DNA from: Stappia indica
Lineage (GTDB): Bacteria; Pseudomonadota; Alphaproteobacteria; Rhizobiales; Stappiaceae
Reading direction: 5' to 3'
Assembly (NCBI RefSeq): GCF_020177335.1
Contig: NZ_JAIVMG010000001.1
Span: 868,001 to 932,000, forward strand
DNA: 64,000 nt
In this document: in pieces, positions 5,254 through 21,883 of the stretch
Layout of the letters: each line of letters opens with the position of its first letter
Numbering within the stretch: position 1 is the stretch's first letter
Translations under genes and position numbers: made by a program
The notes under the pieces: generated by a model
Databases searched by the model: none
Told to the model about the DNA's origin: nothing
The model's input: the letters and a program-made list of their open reading frames with translations, nothing else

Positions 5254-6924
5254 ATGGCGAGTGACATTGAAATTGCACGTGCGGCCAAGATGCGGCCGAT
5301 CACCGAGATCGGCGCGAAGCTCGACATTCCGCCCGAGGCGCTCGAAAGCTACGGCTCGACCAAGGCCAAGGTCAAATCCTCCTTCATCGCCGGACTGAAC
5401 GGCCGGCCCGACGGCAAGCTGATCCTCGTCACCGCGATCAACCCGACACCGGCCGGCGAAGGCAAGACCACCACCACCGTGGGTCTCGGCGACGGGCTCA
5501 ACCGGATCGGCAAGCGGGCGGCCATGTGCCTGCGCGAACCCTCGCTCGGCCCCTGTTTCGGCATGAAGGGCGGGGCCGCCGGCGGCGGCCATGCCCAGGT
5601 GGTGCCGATGGAGGACATCAACCTCCATTTCACCGGCGATTTTCACGCGATCACCTCCGCGCATAACCTCCTGTCGGCGCTGATCGACAACCACATCTAC
5701 TGGGGCAACACACTGGAGATCGACGTGCGCCGGGTCACCTGGCGCCGGGTCATGGACATGAACGACCGGTCCTTGCGGGAGATCGTCTCCTCGCTCGGCG
5801 GTGTCGCCAACGGCTTCCCGCGCGAGGCCGGCTTTGACATCACCGTCGCCTCGGAAATCATGGCGATCCTCTGCCTCGCCACCGATCTCGCCGATCTTCA
5901 GGAACGGCTCGGCAACATCATCATCGGCTATCGCCGCGACCGCTCCGCCGTCACCGCCCGTGACCTAGAAGCGGATGGCGCTATGACCGTTCTGCTCAAG
6001 GAGGCGATGCAACCAAATCTGGTGCAGACGCTGGAAAACAACCCCGCCTTCATCCATGGCGGCCCGTTCGCCAACATCGCCCATGGCTGCAACTCGGTGA
6101 TCGCCACCCGGACGGCCCTGAAGCTGGCGGACTATGTGGTGACCGAGGCGGGCTTTGGTGCCGATCTCGGCGCGGAGAAGTTCTTCGACATCAAATGCCG
6201 CAAGGCAGGCCTCTCGCCGGCCGCCGCGGTGATCGTCGCCACCATCCGCGCCCTGAAGATGAACGGCGGCGTGGGCAAGGACGCGCTTGGCGAGGAGAAC
6301 GTCGAGGCACTGAAGAAGGGCTGCGCCAACCTTGGCCGGCACATCGAGAACGTCAAGCAATTCGGCGTGCCGGTGGTGGTCGCCATCAACCACTTCGTCA
6401 CCGACACCGATGCCGAGGTCGAGGCGATCAAGGCCTATGCCGCCGAACAGGGCGTGGAGGCGGTGCTGTGCCAGCACTGGGCCAAGGGATCGGAAGGCAC
6501 CGAGGAGCTCGCCCGCAAGGTGGTGGAACTGGTGGAGCATGACAGCGCGCAATTCGCCCCGCTCTACGAGGACGACATGCCGCTGTTCGCCAAGATCCAG
6601 ACCGTGGCGCGGCGGATCTACCGGGCCGATGACGTGGCCGCCGACAAGTCGGTGCGCGACCAGTTGCACAAGTGGGAGGCGGACGGGTTCGGCCACCTGC
6701 CGGTGTGCATGGCCAAGACCCAGTATTCCTTCTCCACCGACCCGAACCTGCGCGGCGCGCCGACCGGGCATATGGTGCCGGTGCGCGAGGTGCGCCTGTC
6801 CGCCGGCGCCGGTTTCATCGTCGTCATCTGCGGTGAGATCATGACCATGCCGGGCCTGCCGAAGGTGCCCTCGGCCAACCACATCCGCCTCGATGCCGAT
6901 GGGCAGATCGAAGGGCTGTTCTGA
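5254..6924 (+). CDS. fhs: Formate--tetrahydrofolate ligase
   Basis: This 556-residue enzyme interconverts formate, ATP and THF with 10-formyl-THF. The P-loop-like nucleotide motif [10 protein letters not shown] lies at about residues 65-74, preceded by the family's TAINPT. The rest is collinear with the family, including [11 protein letters not shown] and [20 protein letters not shown] ribosome site precedes the ATG. It opens the C1 cluster: in the reverse direction it could release formate with ATP formation from methyl groups that reach 10-formyl-THF. The methylene-THF dehydrogenase/cyclohydrolase (FolD) needed for that is not in this window. A 557-base repeat-bearing gap separates it from the corrinoid protein gene. 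Confidence 0.97.
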
Positions 6925-6994
6925 CGCCAACACGCCCCCGAGGACCTCGGCAACAGGTTCGTCATCAACTCATTGCGGCGAATTCGTCTCTGAT

Positions 6995-7290
6995 GCGGGG
7001 ATCGGGGAGCCGATGGGCCTGCGTTTTCAAGGGGCTGGACCCGAGAGATCCTGGCTCCCCGATCCCGGATCTTCGCTTCGCTTCGTCCGGGAGGACGCGG
7101 AGTGTACGGCGATGGCCGGTGCAGAGAGCCCTTGCCCCATTTCTCGGCGTCCTCCCGGGCAAGCCTCAAGCGCGACCCGGGACCGGCGAGGCACAGCCTG
7201 TCGGTTCTGATGATGCTGGAAGCGCTCCGCTCTCGGCTCCCCGGTCCCGGCTCGGGGGCCGGGACGACGCGGGAGGCACGGCTTTCCTGA
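6995..7290. repeat. Dispersed palindromic element, two units (copy 1)
   Basis: The gap 6925-7481 holds two units of a palindromic intergenic element. Unit A (about 6995-7105) shares GGATCGGGGAGCC, GCGTTTTCAA and TCCGGGAGGACGCGG with the copies at 41.6 and 44.3 kb but lacks their left arm. Unit B (about 7146-7290) reads as the reverse complement of the copy at 14.2 kb, including TCCCGGGCAAG and the CGGCTCGGGGGCCGGGACG stretch. Both units can fold into long stems. I see no coding potential; the rest of the gap (7300-7481) should hold the corrinoid gene promoter. Confidence 0.6.
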
Positions 7291-20041: not shown

Positions 20042-20341
20042 GCTTCCCCCTTCTTCCCTGGCCTGCTTGCCTGACCTCTCCGCCCCCCGCGCATCGCTTG
20101 GCGGATGCGCGCCGGGCCAGCTCTCTTATGCAAGGCAGTATCGCGGGAAAAACCGGGGCCAAGTAGCGCATTTGCGTCATCCGGGTATCGCCGCGCCGAC
20201 AAGGAGAACCAAAAGCCGCGCCCGTCCCGCCCGCCGCCATGACGTTTTTAGAGAAGCGGGAGACGCTTTCGCACCGCTGGACCGCCTGCAACCGGCGCAC
20301 AGTTACCCTGAGATATTCGCCTTCGCAGGGGATCGAGCGGC
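20042..20341. promoter_or_regulatory. Divergent promoter region between the flavoprotein and MttB-homologue genes
   Basis: About 300 bases separate the two divergent starts (20041 leftward, 20342 rightward), so both promoters and shared control sites should lie here. I could not pick out a confident -35/-10 pair or an operator palindrome, and I see no coding frame with family features. Confidence 0.5.
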
Positions 20342-21883
20342 ATGAGCGAGCAAGCAACACGCGCGGGACGGCGCGGACGGGCGGCGCGGACGGAGAAGCG
20401 GCGGGAGAGCCAGACGGCCATGGGCACGCCGTATATCTCTCGGGGCATTCCGGTCACCGATTTTCTCAGCGACGAGGGCGCGGAGATCATCGAAGCTAAT
20501 GCCGACCGCATTCTGGAAGAGATCGGCATCGAGTTCCACGACGATCCGGAAACGCTCGACATCTGGCGGCAGGCCGGCGCCGACGTGACCGGCACCCGGG
20601 TGCGCTTTCCCAAGGGCCTGCCGCGCTCGCTGCTCGCCACCGCGCCCACACGCTTCACCCAGCACGCCCGCAACCCGGCCCGCAACGTGGAGATCGGCGG
20701 CAACAACCTGGTGTTCGCCCCGGTCTACGGTCCGCCCTTCGTCACCGATCTGGATGAGGGCCGGCGCTATGGCACCATCGAGGACTTCCGCAATTTCGTG
20801 AAGCTGGCCTATGCCTCGCCCCATCTGCACCATTCGGGCGGCACGGTCTGCGAGCCGGTCGACCTACCGGTCAACAAACGCCATTTCGACATGGTGTATT
20901 CCCACCTGAAATACTCCGACAAGCCGTTCATGGGCTCGGTGACCGCGCCGGAGCGGGCGGAAGATTCCGTGGAGATGGCCCGGCTGGTGTTCGGCCGCGA
21001 GTTCGTCGACGCCAATTGCGTGATGATCCAGTTGATCAACGCCAATTCGCCGCTGGTGTACGATGCGACCATGCTGGGGGCGCTCAAGGTCTATGCCCGG
21101 GCCAATCAGGCCTGCATCGTCTCCCCCTTTATCCTGGCCGGCGCCATGAGCCCGGTGACCGTCGCCGGAACCCTCTCCCAGGTGCTGGCCGAAGCGCTGG
21201 TCGGCTGCGCCCTCACCCAGCTGCTGCGCCCCGGCGCGCCGGTGGTGTTCGGCGCCTTCGTCTCCTCCATCTCGATGCAATCGGGCGCGCCGACCTTCGG
21301 CTCGCCGGAAGGCAGCTTGCTGCTCAACGGCGCGGCCAAGCTCGCCCGCCGCGCCGGCCTGCCCTTCCGCTCTGGCGGTTCCTTTACCTCCTCCAAGACC
21401 CCGGACGGACAATCGGCCCAGGAGTCCGCGCAAACCATTCTGGCAACGTTGCTTTCTGGCGTGAACTTCTGCCTGCACGCGGCCGGCTGGCTGGAGGGCG
21501 GCCTGTGCTCCTCCTACGAGAAATTCGTGATGGATGCGGACCAGCTCGGCATGATGCACGTGCTGGCCAAGGGCATTGACCTCTCGGAAGAAGCGCAGGC
21601 GATGGACGCGCTGCATGAAGTCGGCCCCGGCGGGCATTTCCTCGGCGCCGCCCATACCCAGCGCAACTTCGAAAGCGCGTTCTATCGCTCGGCGATCGCC
21701 GACAACAACTCCTACGAACAATGGAGCGCCGATGGCGGGCTGGACGCCGCCCAGCGCGCCAACCAGAAGTGGAAACAGATGCTCGCGGCCTATACGCCGC
21801 CGGAGCTCGACCCGGCCATCGACGAGGCGCTGATCGCCTTCATGACCAGGCGGAAATCCGAGTTTCCCGACAGCAACGTCTGA
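20342..21883 (+). CDS. MttB-family (trimethylamine methyltransferase-like, non-pyrrolysine) methyltransferase
   Basis: This 513-residue TIM-barrel protein belongs to the MttB superfamily, whose characterised non-pyrrolysine members demethylate glycine betaine, proline betaine or carnitine onto a corrinoid protein. The frame is uninterrupted with no internal TAG, so no pyrrolysine is used. The N-terminal core reads FLSDEGAEIIEANADRILEE near residue 40, with TRVRFPKGL and HSGGTVCEP further on. The first 25 residues form an Arg-rich extension (RAGRRGRAARTEKRRE) not needed for the barrel. It starts at 20342, divergent from the flavoprotein gene and upstream of an ABC importer. Glycine betaine is the most likely substrate from context only. 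Confidence 0.9.
   Translation: MSEQATRAGRRGRAARTEKRRESQTAMGTPYISRGIPVTDFLSDEGAEIIEANADRILEEIGIEFHDDPETLDIWRQAGADVTGTRVRFPKGLPRSLLATAPTRFTQHARNPARNVEIGGNNLVFAPVYGPPFVTDLDEGRRYGTIEDFRNFVKLAYASPHLHHSGGTVCEPVDLPVNKRHFDMVYSHLKYSDKPFMGSVTAPERAEDSVEMARLVFGREFVDANCVMIQLINANSPLVYDATMLGALKVYARANQACIVSPFILAGAMSPVTVAGTLSQVLAEALVGCALTQLLRPGAPVVFGAFVSSISMQSGAPTFGSPEGSLLLNGAAKLARRAGLPFRSGGSFTSSKTPDGQSAQESAQTILATLLSGVNFCLHAAGWLEGGLCSSYEKFVMDADQLGMMHVLAKGIDLSEEAQAMDALHEVGPGGHFLGAAHTQRNFESAFYRSAIADNNSYEQWSADGGLDAAQRANQKWKQMLAAYTPPELDPAIDEALIAFMTRRKSEFPDSNV

Follow-up and report, generated by a model that had tools for sequence, protein, structure and literature searches.

A probable, clustered MtgBCDE-type demethylation system in Stappia indica, with glycine betaine as its most likely substrate

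A stretch of 64,000 nucleotides from Stappia indica (contig NZ_JAIVMG010000001.1, positions 868,001 to 932,000 of the forward strand; hereafter the window) carries, between positions 5254 and 21883, a cluster of genes for corrinoid- and tetrahydrofolate (THF)-dependent methyl transfer. Judged from its sequence, the cluster probably encodes an MtgBCDE-type system with glycine betaine as the most likely substrate and with oxidation of the methyl group via methyl-THF; a probability of about 0.75 was assigned to this reading. A system of this type was published in 2025 from aerobic marine bacteria, and the oxidative reading for betaine is supported here, not new. The new observations are the swap of two methyl-THF enzymes within one slot of the cluster, the co-occurrence of a PF13769 protein and the invariant cysteines of a DUF1638 protein. 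Testable functions are offered for PF13769 and DUF1638, two families without one.

Gene cluster and proposed route

In the proposed route the cell would import a quaternary amine, of which glycine betaine is the likeliest, after which MtgB would transfer one methyl group to the Co(I) of the carrier MtgC and MtgD would pass it from MtgC to THF. MetF2, a methylenetetrahydrofolate reductase (MTHFR) of the type found in Sphingobium lignivorans SYK-6, would oxidise methyl-THF to methylene-THF, which FolD, encoded elsewhere, and Fhs would convert to formate, with the ATP yield that we infer for the Fhs step. The dimethylglycine would be taken to glycine by a dimethylglycine dehydrogenase (DMGDH) and a soxA-type sarcosine oxidase. 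Oxidised carrier would be re-reduced by a RACo-like activator and the DUF1638 protein, a repair expected to be frequent because the host is aerobic. MtgE may divert methyl groups to homocysteine, yielding methionine, and the PF13769 protein would be a conserved helper at the methyl-THF end.

An earlier note, made from the letters and open reading frames (ORFs), had named eight parts of such a system in this interval, and all were present as long ORFs with family matches. The features are as follows.

5254–6924, plus strand: Fhs, formate–THF ligase (PF01268, 919.6 bits; PRK13505, 949 bits, cut-off 652)
6993–7430, plus strand: doubtful gene, an ORF of 145 amino acids between fhs and mtgC (no Pfam match at E 10)
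7467–8189, plus strand: MtgC-like corrinoid carrier (PF02607 and PF02310; DxHxxG motif with H120)
8223–8879, plus strand: DUF1638 protein (PF07796, 109 bits)
8960–9613, plus strand: CatB-like (xenobiotic) acetyltransferase (NF000490, 407.7 bits, cut-off 350)
9854–10156, plus strand: PF13769 ('Virulence_fact') protein of 100 amino acids (90.6 bits)
10149–11045, plus strand: MetF2, a 7xg9-type MTHFR and proposed methyl-THF oxidase (PF02219 sub-threshold)
11042–11998, plus strand: MtgD-like methyl-THF:corrinoid methyltransferase (PF00809, 98.5 bits; PRK07535, 399.9 bits, cut-off 259)
11872–14091, plus strand: RACo-like ATP-dependent corrinoid activator with a 2Fe-2S domain (PF14574, PF17651, PF17650, PF00111; Fer2)
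14675–16288, plus strand: BCCT betaine/carnitine/choline-type transporter (PF02028, 589 bits)
16388–17398, minus strand: MtgE-like homocysteine S-methyltransferase (PF02574, 208 bits; PRK07534, 497.6 bits, cut-off 338)
17480–20041, minus strand: DMGDH-like protein with FAD and GCV_T domains (DAO, FAO_M, GCV_T, GCV_T_C)
20342–21883, plus strand: MtgB, an MttB-family methyltransferase without pyrrolysine (PF06253, 793 bits)
22261–26828, plus strand: ABC transporter comprising an ATPase, a solute-binding protein and two permeases (ABC_tran/TOBE_2, SBP_bac_8, BPD_transp_1 twice)

The ORF of MtgB encodes 513 amino acids with no in-frame stop, which rules out a pyrrolysine codon, as the earlier note had held for this MttB homologue. 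MtgB is 67% identical to 4yyc, which we take to be a Sinorhizobium meliloti protein, and 46% identical to 2qne, presumably from Desulfitobacterium hafniense. It scored 454.7 bits against 9yce, named glycine betaine methyltransferase by its depositors and near-identical in score to 2qne, as against 138 bits for the trimethylamine methyltransferase 7xcl. Glycine betaine was considered the likeliest substrate because of the identity to 2qne, the score to 9yce and the adjoining DMGDH gene.

MetF2 matched the solved MTHFR 7xg9, which we take to be that of SYK-6, with 142.9 bits (E 1.4e-40), so that the MetF-like reductase of the earlier note was recovered even though the canonical MTHFR profile PF02219 gave 18.1 bits, below the cut-off of 24. 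MtgD scored 23 bits against an MtrH-type model with a cut-off of 287. The MTHFR of SYK-6 oxidises 5-methyl-THF in biochemical assays (PMC12585457). The host genome (4.66 Mb in 40 contigs, 99.97% complete) encodes FolD at C14:91092-91589, placed elsewhere by the earlier note too, and a soxA-type sarcosine oxidase above cut-off at C1:532386-535379, together with two formate dehydrogenase alpha subunits above cut-off, CobT and BetA. Together with the type of MetF2, these genes support the oxidative direction that had been proposed.

Conservation was assessed in two sets of stretches, counted apart: 40 stretches from relatives of the kind surveyed below, and the best 80 of at least 593 relatives of mtgD, a sample that leans to close relatives. 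Stretches extended to at most 20–21 kb, several of them came from one genome, and a gene absent from a stretch is not thereby absent from the genome. Gene families were also surveyed in 61 genomes (the host and 60 relatives), with a second count omitting the 13 other members of the host's genus, and in 14 control genomes; Fisher p-values for co-occurrence ignore kinship among the genomes and are descriptive only. Among the matches listed, from which near-identical records may be omitted, the closest mtgD was from Stappia indica (93% identity), followed by those of Roseibium (up to 91%), Labrenzia and Nitratireductor (90%). Relatives in the host's family share the order (fhs) – mtgC – DUF1638 – (catB) – PF13769 – MetF – mtgD – RACo, and several also have mtgE and dmgdh on the minus strand followed by mtgB and the ABC ATPase gene on the plus strand. 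The rhizobial loci carry mtgB on the opposite strand, upstream of mtgC. Since much of the gene order recurs in relatives, the cluster is not a chance grouping.

The PF13769 gene, metF2 and mtgD overlap successively by a few bases (four for metF2/mtgD), as in a single predicted transcript. The start of the RACo-like protein probably lies downstream of 11872, because its match begins at residue 71. A CatB gene was matched strongly between those for DUF1638 and PF13769 in five of the 40 stretches, all from the same genus, and in one of the 80 (L120); the acetyltransferase is probably not part of the pathway and was inserted into the operon. A plus-strand ORF of 1186 amino acids (16514–20074) was discarded, having no Pfam or NCBIfam match at E<=0.001, and the minus-strand genes beneath it are real. 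A cobalamin riboswitch was not found, as nothing in the window matched Rfam at gathering score. A further B12-dependent route lies nearby, with methylmalonyl-CoA mutase, propionyl-CoA carboxylase and a ScfR-type regulator (29782–35492, minus strand; 36170–37630, plus strand).

The methyl-THF slot and the PF13769 protein

The slot beside mtgD is occupied by either of two enzymes. Among the 80 loci, 37 have a SYK-6-type metF2, 38 have MetV (PF12225) with MetF (PF02219), five have neither (L159, L165, L173, L175 and L177), and the two never occur together. For the MetV–MetF pair, Pfam assignments were verified on L121 and L166, and the other 36 loci rest on profile matches to L121. The pair occurs in rhizobia and their relatives (L121:8214-9880, L166:8235-9943 and L198:18195-19870). 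As two different enzymes occupy one slot, oxidation of the methyl-THF made by MtgD is the best explanation of its function. The annotation of an S. meliloti record lists DUF1638, a 'virulence factor', an MTHFR C-terminal protein, MTHFR and a methyl-THF cobalamin methyltransferase, then a hypothetical protein, an ASKHA protein, bmt and a trimethylamine methyltransferase family protein. In Paracoccus aminovorans a MetV-MetF-mtgD-ASKHA run has no PF13769 annotated. The S. meliloti record L198 (CP090106.1) is labelled pSymB yet measures 3.7 Mb, and may be a mislabelled chromosome.

A PF13769 gene was present in 77 of the 80 mtgD loci. Of the three loci without it, L119 and L171 are truncated on the upstream side, and L188 genuinely has no match to the profile used. 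The 40-stretch set had it in 23 of the 27 stretches with mtgD, the remainder being L090, L098, L105 and L108; it stands without the other profiled genes in L195 and L196, which come from the genomes of L098 and L090, and in L194. The protein has 100 amino acids and an alpha/beta structure, and close to its start the stretch W-R-D-I-P is conserved. Its structural model has a predicted local distance difference test (pLDDT) score of 93.2, and a fold search with the model returned no PDB match at E<=0.001.

Across the survey, matches were found in 36 genomes for DUF1638, 36 for PF06253, 35 for PF13769, 55 for PF02965 and 59 for PF02574. DUF1638 and PF13769 occurred together in 32 of the 61 genomes, DUF1638 alone in four (G007, which is 85% complete, G052, G056 and G058), PF13769 alone in three and neither in 22. 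The three have a diverged PF13769, which in G042 is found close to a full MetH and a metF2-like gene (L107:8814-15825), in G047 close to a metF2-like gene with RACo-like and corrinoid-like matches (L193:1-10400), and in G049 by itself (L194). Among the controls it was found in Bacillus subtilis only. A role as a subunit of MetF2 only is weakened, the gene being kept in loci with MetV and MetF (38) and in those with neither enzyme (five). PF13769, labelled a 'virulence factor', may rather be a conserved partner that travels with mtgD as a helper; its distribution suggests a link with methyl-THF chemistry more than with the reduction of the corrinoid, though not a universal one.

The wider proposal, to which slightly less than even odds were given, is of a core in aerobic alphaproteobacteria, PF13769-[oxidase]-mtgD-RACo, that accepts either a SYK-6-type MTHFR or MetV and MetF, with PF13769 as a dedicated methyl-THF component and DUF1638 as a cysteine-rich partner of RACo with a redox or metal role. 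Searches limited to open-licence literature found no paper on PF13769, none treating MetV, methylenetetrahydrofolate reductase and Sinorhizobium together, none combining mtgB, glycine betaine and methyltransferase with Rhizobium, and none treating S. meliloti glycine betaine, corrinoid and methylenetetrahydrofolate jointly; among the papers listed for a 'virulence factor family protein' (8 of 1,546), none contained that name.

Carrier, reactivation and competing readings

The DxHxxG motif that the earlier note saw in the carrier is present, with D118, H120 and G123 invariant in eight aligned homologues; its histidine, which had been numbered 115, is residue 120 when counted from the ORF start at 7467, and 115 would fit a later start. 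The RACo-like protein matched RACo_C_ter with 299 bits and, across residues 71–702, 3zyy, which we take to be the RACo structure, with 318 bits, in keeping with the 2Fe-2S/ASKHA activator described before.

An alignment of 32 DUF1638 sequences shows C34, C57, C94, C117, H63 and H116 without variation, as does a second alignment (n = 13, mostly survey relatives, some perhaps from shared organisms). Its AlphaFold model has a pLDDT of 88.1, and a fold search with it gave no PDB match at E<=0.001, with query TM-scores of 0.22–0.30 among the matches listed. Published genetics ties DUF1638 to B12 reactivation, and the authors of that work offered no specific function for it (PMC5764234). The protein may hold a metal or an Fe-S cluster, or take part in thiol redox chemistry, beside RACo. 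DUF1638 and PF06253 (MTTB) occurred together in 34 of the 61 genomes, with DUF1638 alone in two (G043 and G058), PF06253 alone in two (G042 and G049) and neither in 23. Omitting the 13 other genus members leaves 21 together, two and two alone, and 23 with neither. Both families were found in one control genome only, that of Methanosarcina acetivorans.

Several observations weigh against the proposed oxidation of glycine betaine. The carrier falls under the cut-offs of two models for the glycine betaine-specific corrinoid protein MtgC (NF047996, 209.3 of 370 bits; NF047995, 176.9 of 310 bits), and the BCCT transporter scores 509.5 bits on the glycine betaine BCCT model NF047988, under its cut-off of 650. 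MetF2 is just 34% identical to 7xg9. Strong matches to Fhs occurred in only five of the 80 stretches (12 of the 40 in the other set), and the flavoprotein matching DMGDH, which had strong matches in nine of the 40 and six of the 80, is just 26–29% identical in L081, L082, L084, L089, L101 and L106. A second betaine route via GbcAB may exist; no search aimed at GbcAB was made. The presence of a BCCT transporter was confirmed as the earlier note had it, but its place in the cluster is not conserved, with strong matches in one of the 40 stretches (L079, a very close relative) and in none of the 80, and confidence was lowered for this reason.

The same mechanism could serve another main substrate, such as carnitine, choline, proline betaine, dimethylsulfoniopropionate (DMSP) or trimethylamine-type compounds, which was considered unlikely. 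In Eubacterium, MttB-family members with a carrier in common act on different substrates (recounted in PMC12478193), the BCCT gene rarely recurs in relatives, and the ABC transporter after mtgB is no obvious betaine importer. The latter perhaps imports the substrate of MtgB; its ATPase was strongly matched in seven of the 40 stretches, adjoining mtgB in several, and in none of the 80. The host also has a second PF06253 gene (C14:72350-73840, 57% identical to the window copy), which adjoins a LysR regulator gene and one for a 694-amino acid OYE/trimethylamine-dehydrogenase-type flavoprotein (L093, C14:72350-75985), a setting that suits another N-methyl compound. No carrier or activator was matched near it within the 19 kb of stretch L093, and the carrier that serves it is presumably the one encoded in the window. 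Its substrate is possibly another quaternary amine such as proline betaine, with an N-methylproline demethylase acting next. For the window copy, the DMGDH-like gene in the locus and the 46% identity to the betaine enzyme favour glycine betaine. In three genomes of the same order (G045, G054 and G060) there are 8 to 10 PF06253 matches each and no PF02965 match.

A main role of the locus as a split methionine synthase (MtgC, MtgD, MtgE, RACo and DUF1638), with MtgB feeding betaine methyl groups to methionine and not to oxidation, was thought distinctly improbable. An MtgE-like gene does lie within the locus, and genetics in Phaeobacter (PMC5764234) and Ruegeria (PMC12478193) speaks for such a role. 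The MtgE-like protein scored 157.5 bits against 1q7m, a MetH-type module, versus 61.6 bits against the betaine–homocysteine S-methyltransferase (BHMT) 1lt7; it is therefore not closer to animal BHMT, yet it passes the NCBIfam model named betaine–homocysteine S-methyltransferase. All six of the 61 genomes without a PF02965 match carry DUF1638, as do 30 of the 55 with one; in G043 and G058 DUF1638 is accompanied by a PF02574 protein, and neither PF02965 nor PF06253 is matched. This association is weak (p 0.073), however, and two of the six genomes are incomplete (G045, 84%; G052, 88%), so that loss of MetH gives no more than a hint of the split-synthase role, for which the support is genetics in other organisms. 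Contig C7 of the host itself encodes a full-length MetH (1243 amino acids, with the five MetH domains) just downstream of a canonical MetF of 307 amino acids (PF02219, 317.5 bits), and the operon has a SYK-6-type MTHFR and Fhs and adjoins the DMGDH gene. Because MetH is kept, MtgE would not be the sole homocysteine methylase.

A reductive direction, in which methyl-THF gives its methyl group to the corrinoid for a further acceptor, was regarded as extremely improbable: MtgD of Ruegeria has been argued to be bidirectional (PMC12478193) and RACo and MtgD are related to acetogen parts (384.6 of 800 bits with the AcsV model; 36.9 bits with CdhD), but MetF2 belongs to the MTHFR type whose SYK-6 member oxidises methyl-THF, and besides MtgD only MtgE and MtgB were seen as methyltransferases of the locus among the window proteins, which were scanned in part with Pfam and NCBIfam profiles.

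Comparison with known systems

With the system proposed for the window, the aerobic corrinoid-dependent demethylation known from marine bacteria gains a compact example, along with many relatives in rhizobia, and an aerobe's upkeep of a Co(I) carrier is made testable by DUF1638 and RACo. The reading of the earlier note was supported as to parts and direction; left out of it were MtgE and the methionine role, DUF1638, PF13769, CatB and the prior publication.

MtgBCDE of Ruegeria pomeroyi is described as a dual methionine synthase and glycine betaine demethylase, with induction by betaine in proteomics and with knock-outs that show mtgC and mtgD to be needed, and the same oxidation of methyl-THF by MetF2 is proposed there (PMC12478193). 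Both organisms have the MtgB, MtgC, MtgD and MtgE families, a RamA-like activator, DUF1638, metF2 beside mtgD and a BCCT transporter; the host thus has PF06253, the carrier, the PF00809 and PF02574 modules, the activator with DUF1638, and metF2 beside mtgD. In the host a single cluster of about 17 kb contains these parts, whereas those of R. pomeroyi are not so clustered. Many genomes have demethylation genes nearby, and the genes of S. meliloti are described as co-located (PMC12478193). Neither 'metV' nor 'virulence' occurs in the main text of PMC12478193. The absence of a classical MetH, a trait of MtgBCDE, does not hold for the host; it is reported for about 70% of cases and is not defining, and Mtg genes together with MetH are found mainly in Hyphomicrobiales, SAR324 and certain Alphaproteobacteria (PMC12478193).

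Phaeobacter inhibens has a split methionine synthase and, as genetics shows, needs both a RamA-like and a DUF1638 protein for it; it shares with the host the carrier, the methyl-THF and homocysteine modules and the two reactivation proteins (PMC5764234). That system was described for methionine, while the host locus adds MtgB, Fhs and DMGDH and its genome retains MetH.

The methyl-THF step of the host is assigned to a PF00809/PRK07535 protein, unlike MtgA of D. hafniense, which we take to be MtrH-like, and the setting in the host is aerobic, with oxidation to formate proposed. MtgABC of D. hafniense and MtgBC of methanogens likewise combine an MtgB-type protein without pyrrolysine with a B12 carrier of the same two domains (described in part in PMC12478193). 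S6MTHFR of S. lignivorans SYK-6 is of the same MTHFR type as MetF2 and serves methyl-THF oxidation (PMC12585457). The methyl group would reach methyl-THF through a corrinoid protein in the host, whereas that of SYK-6 comes from LigM.

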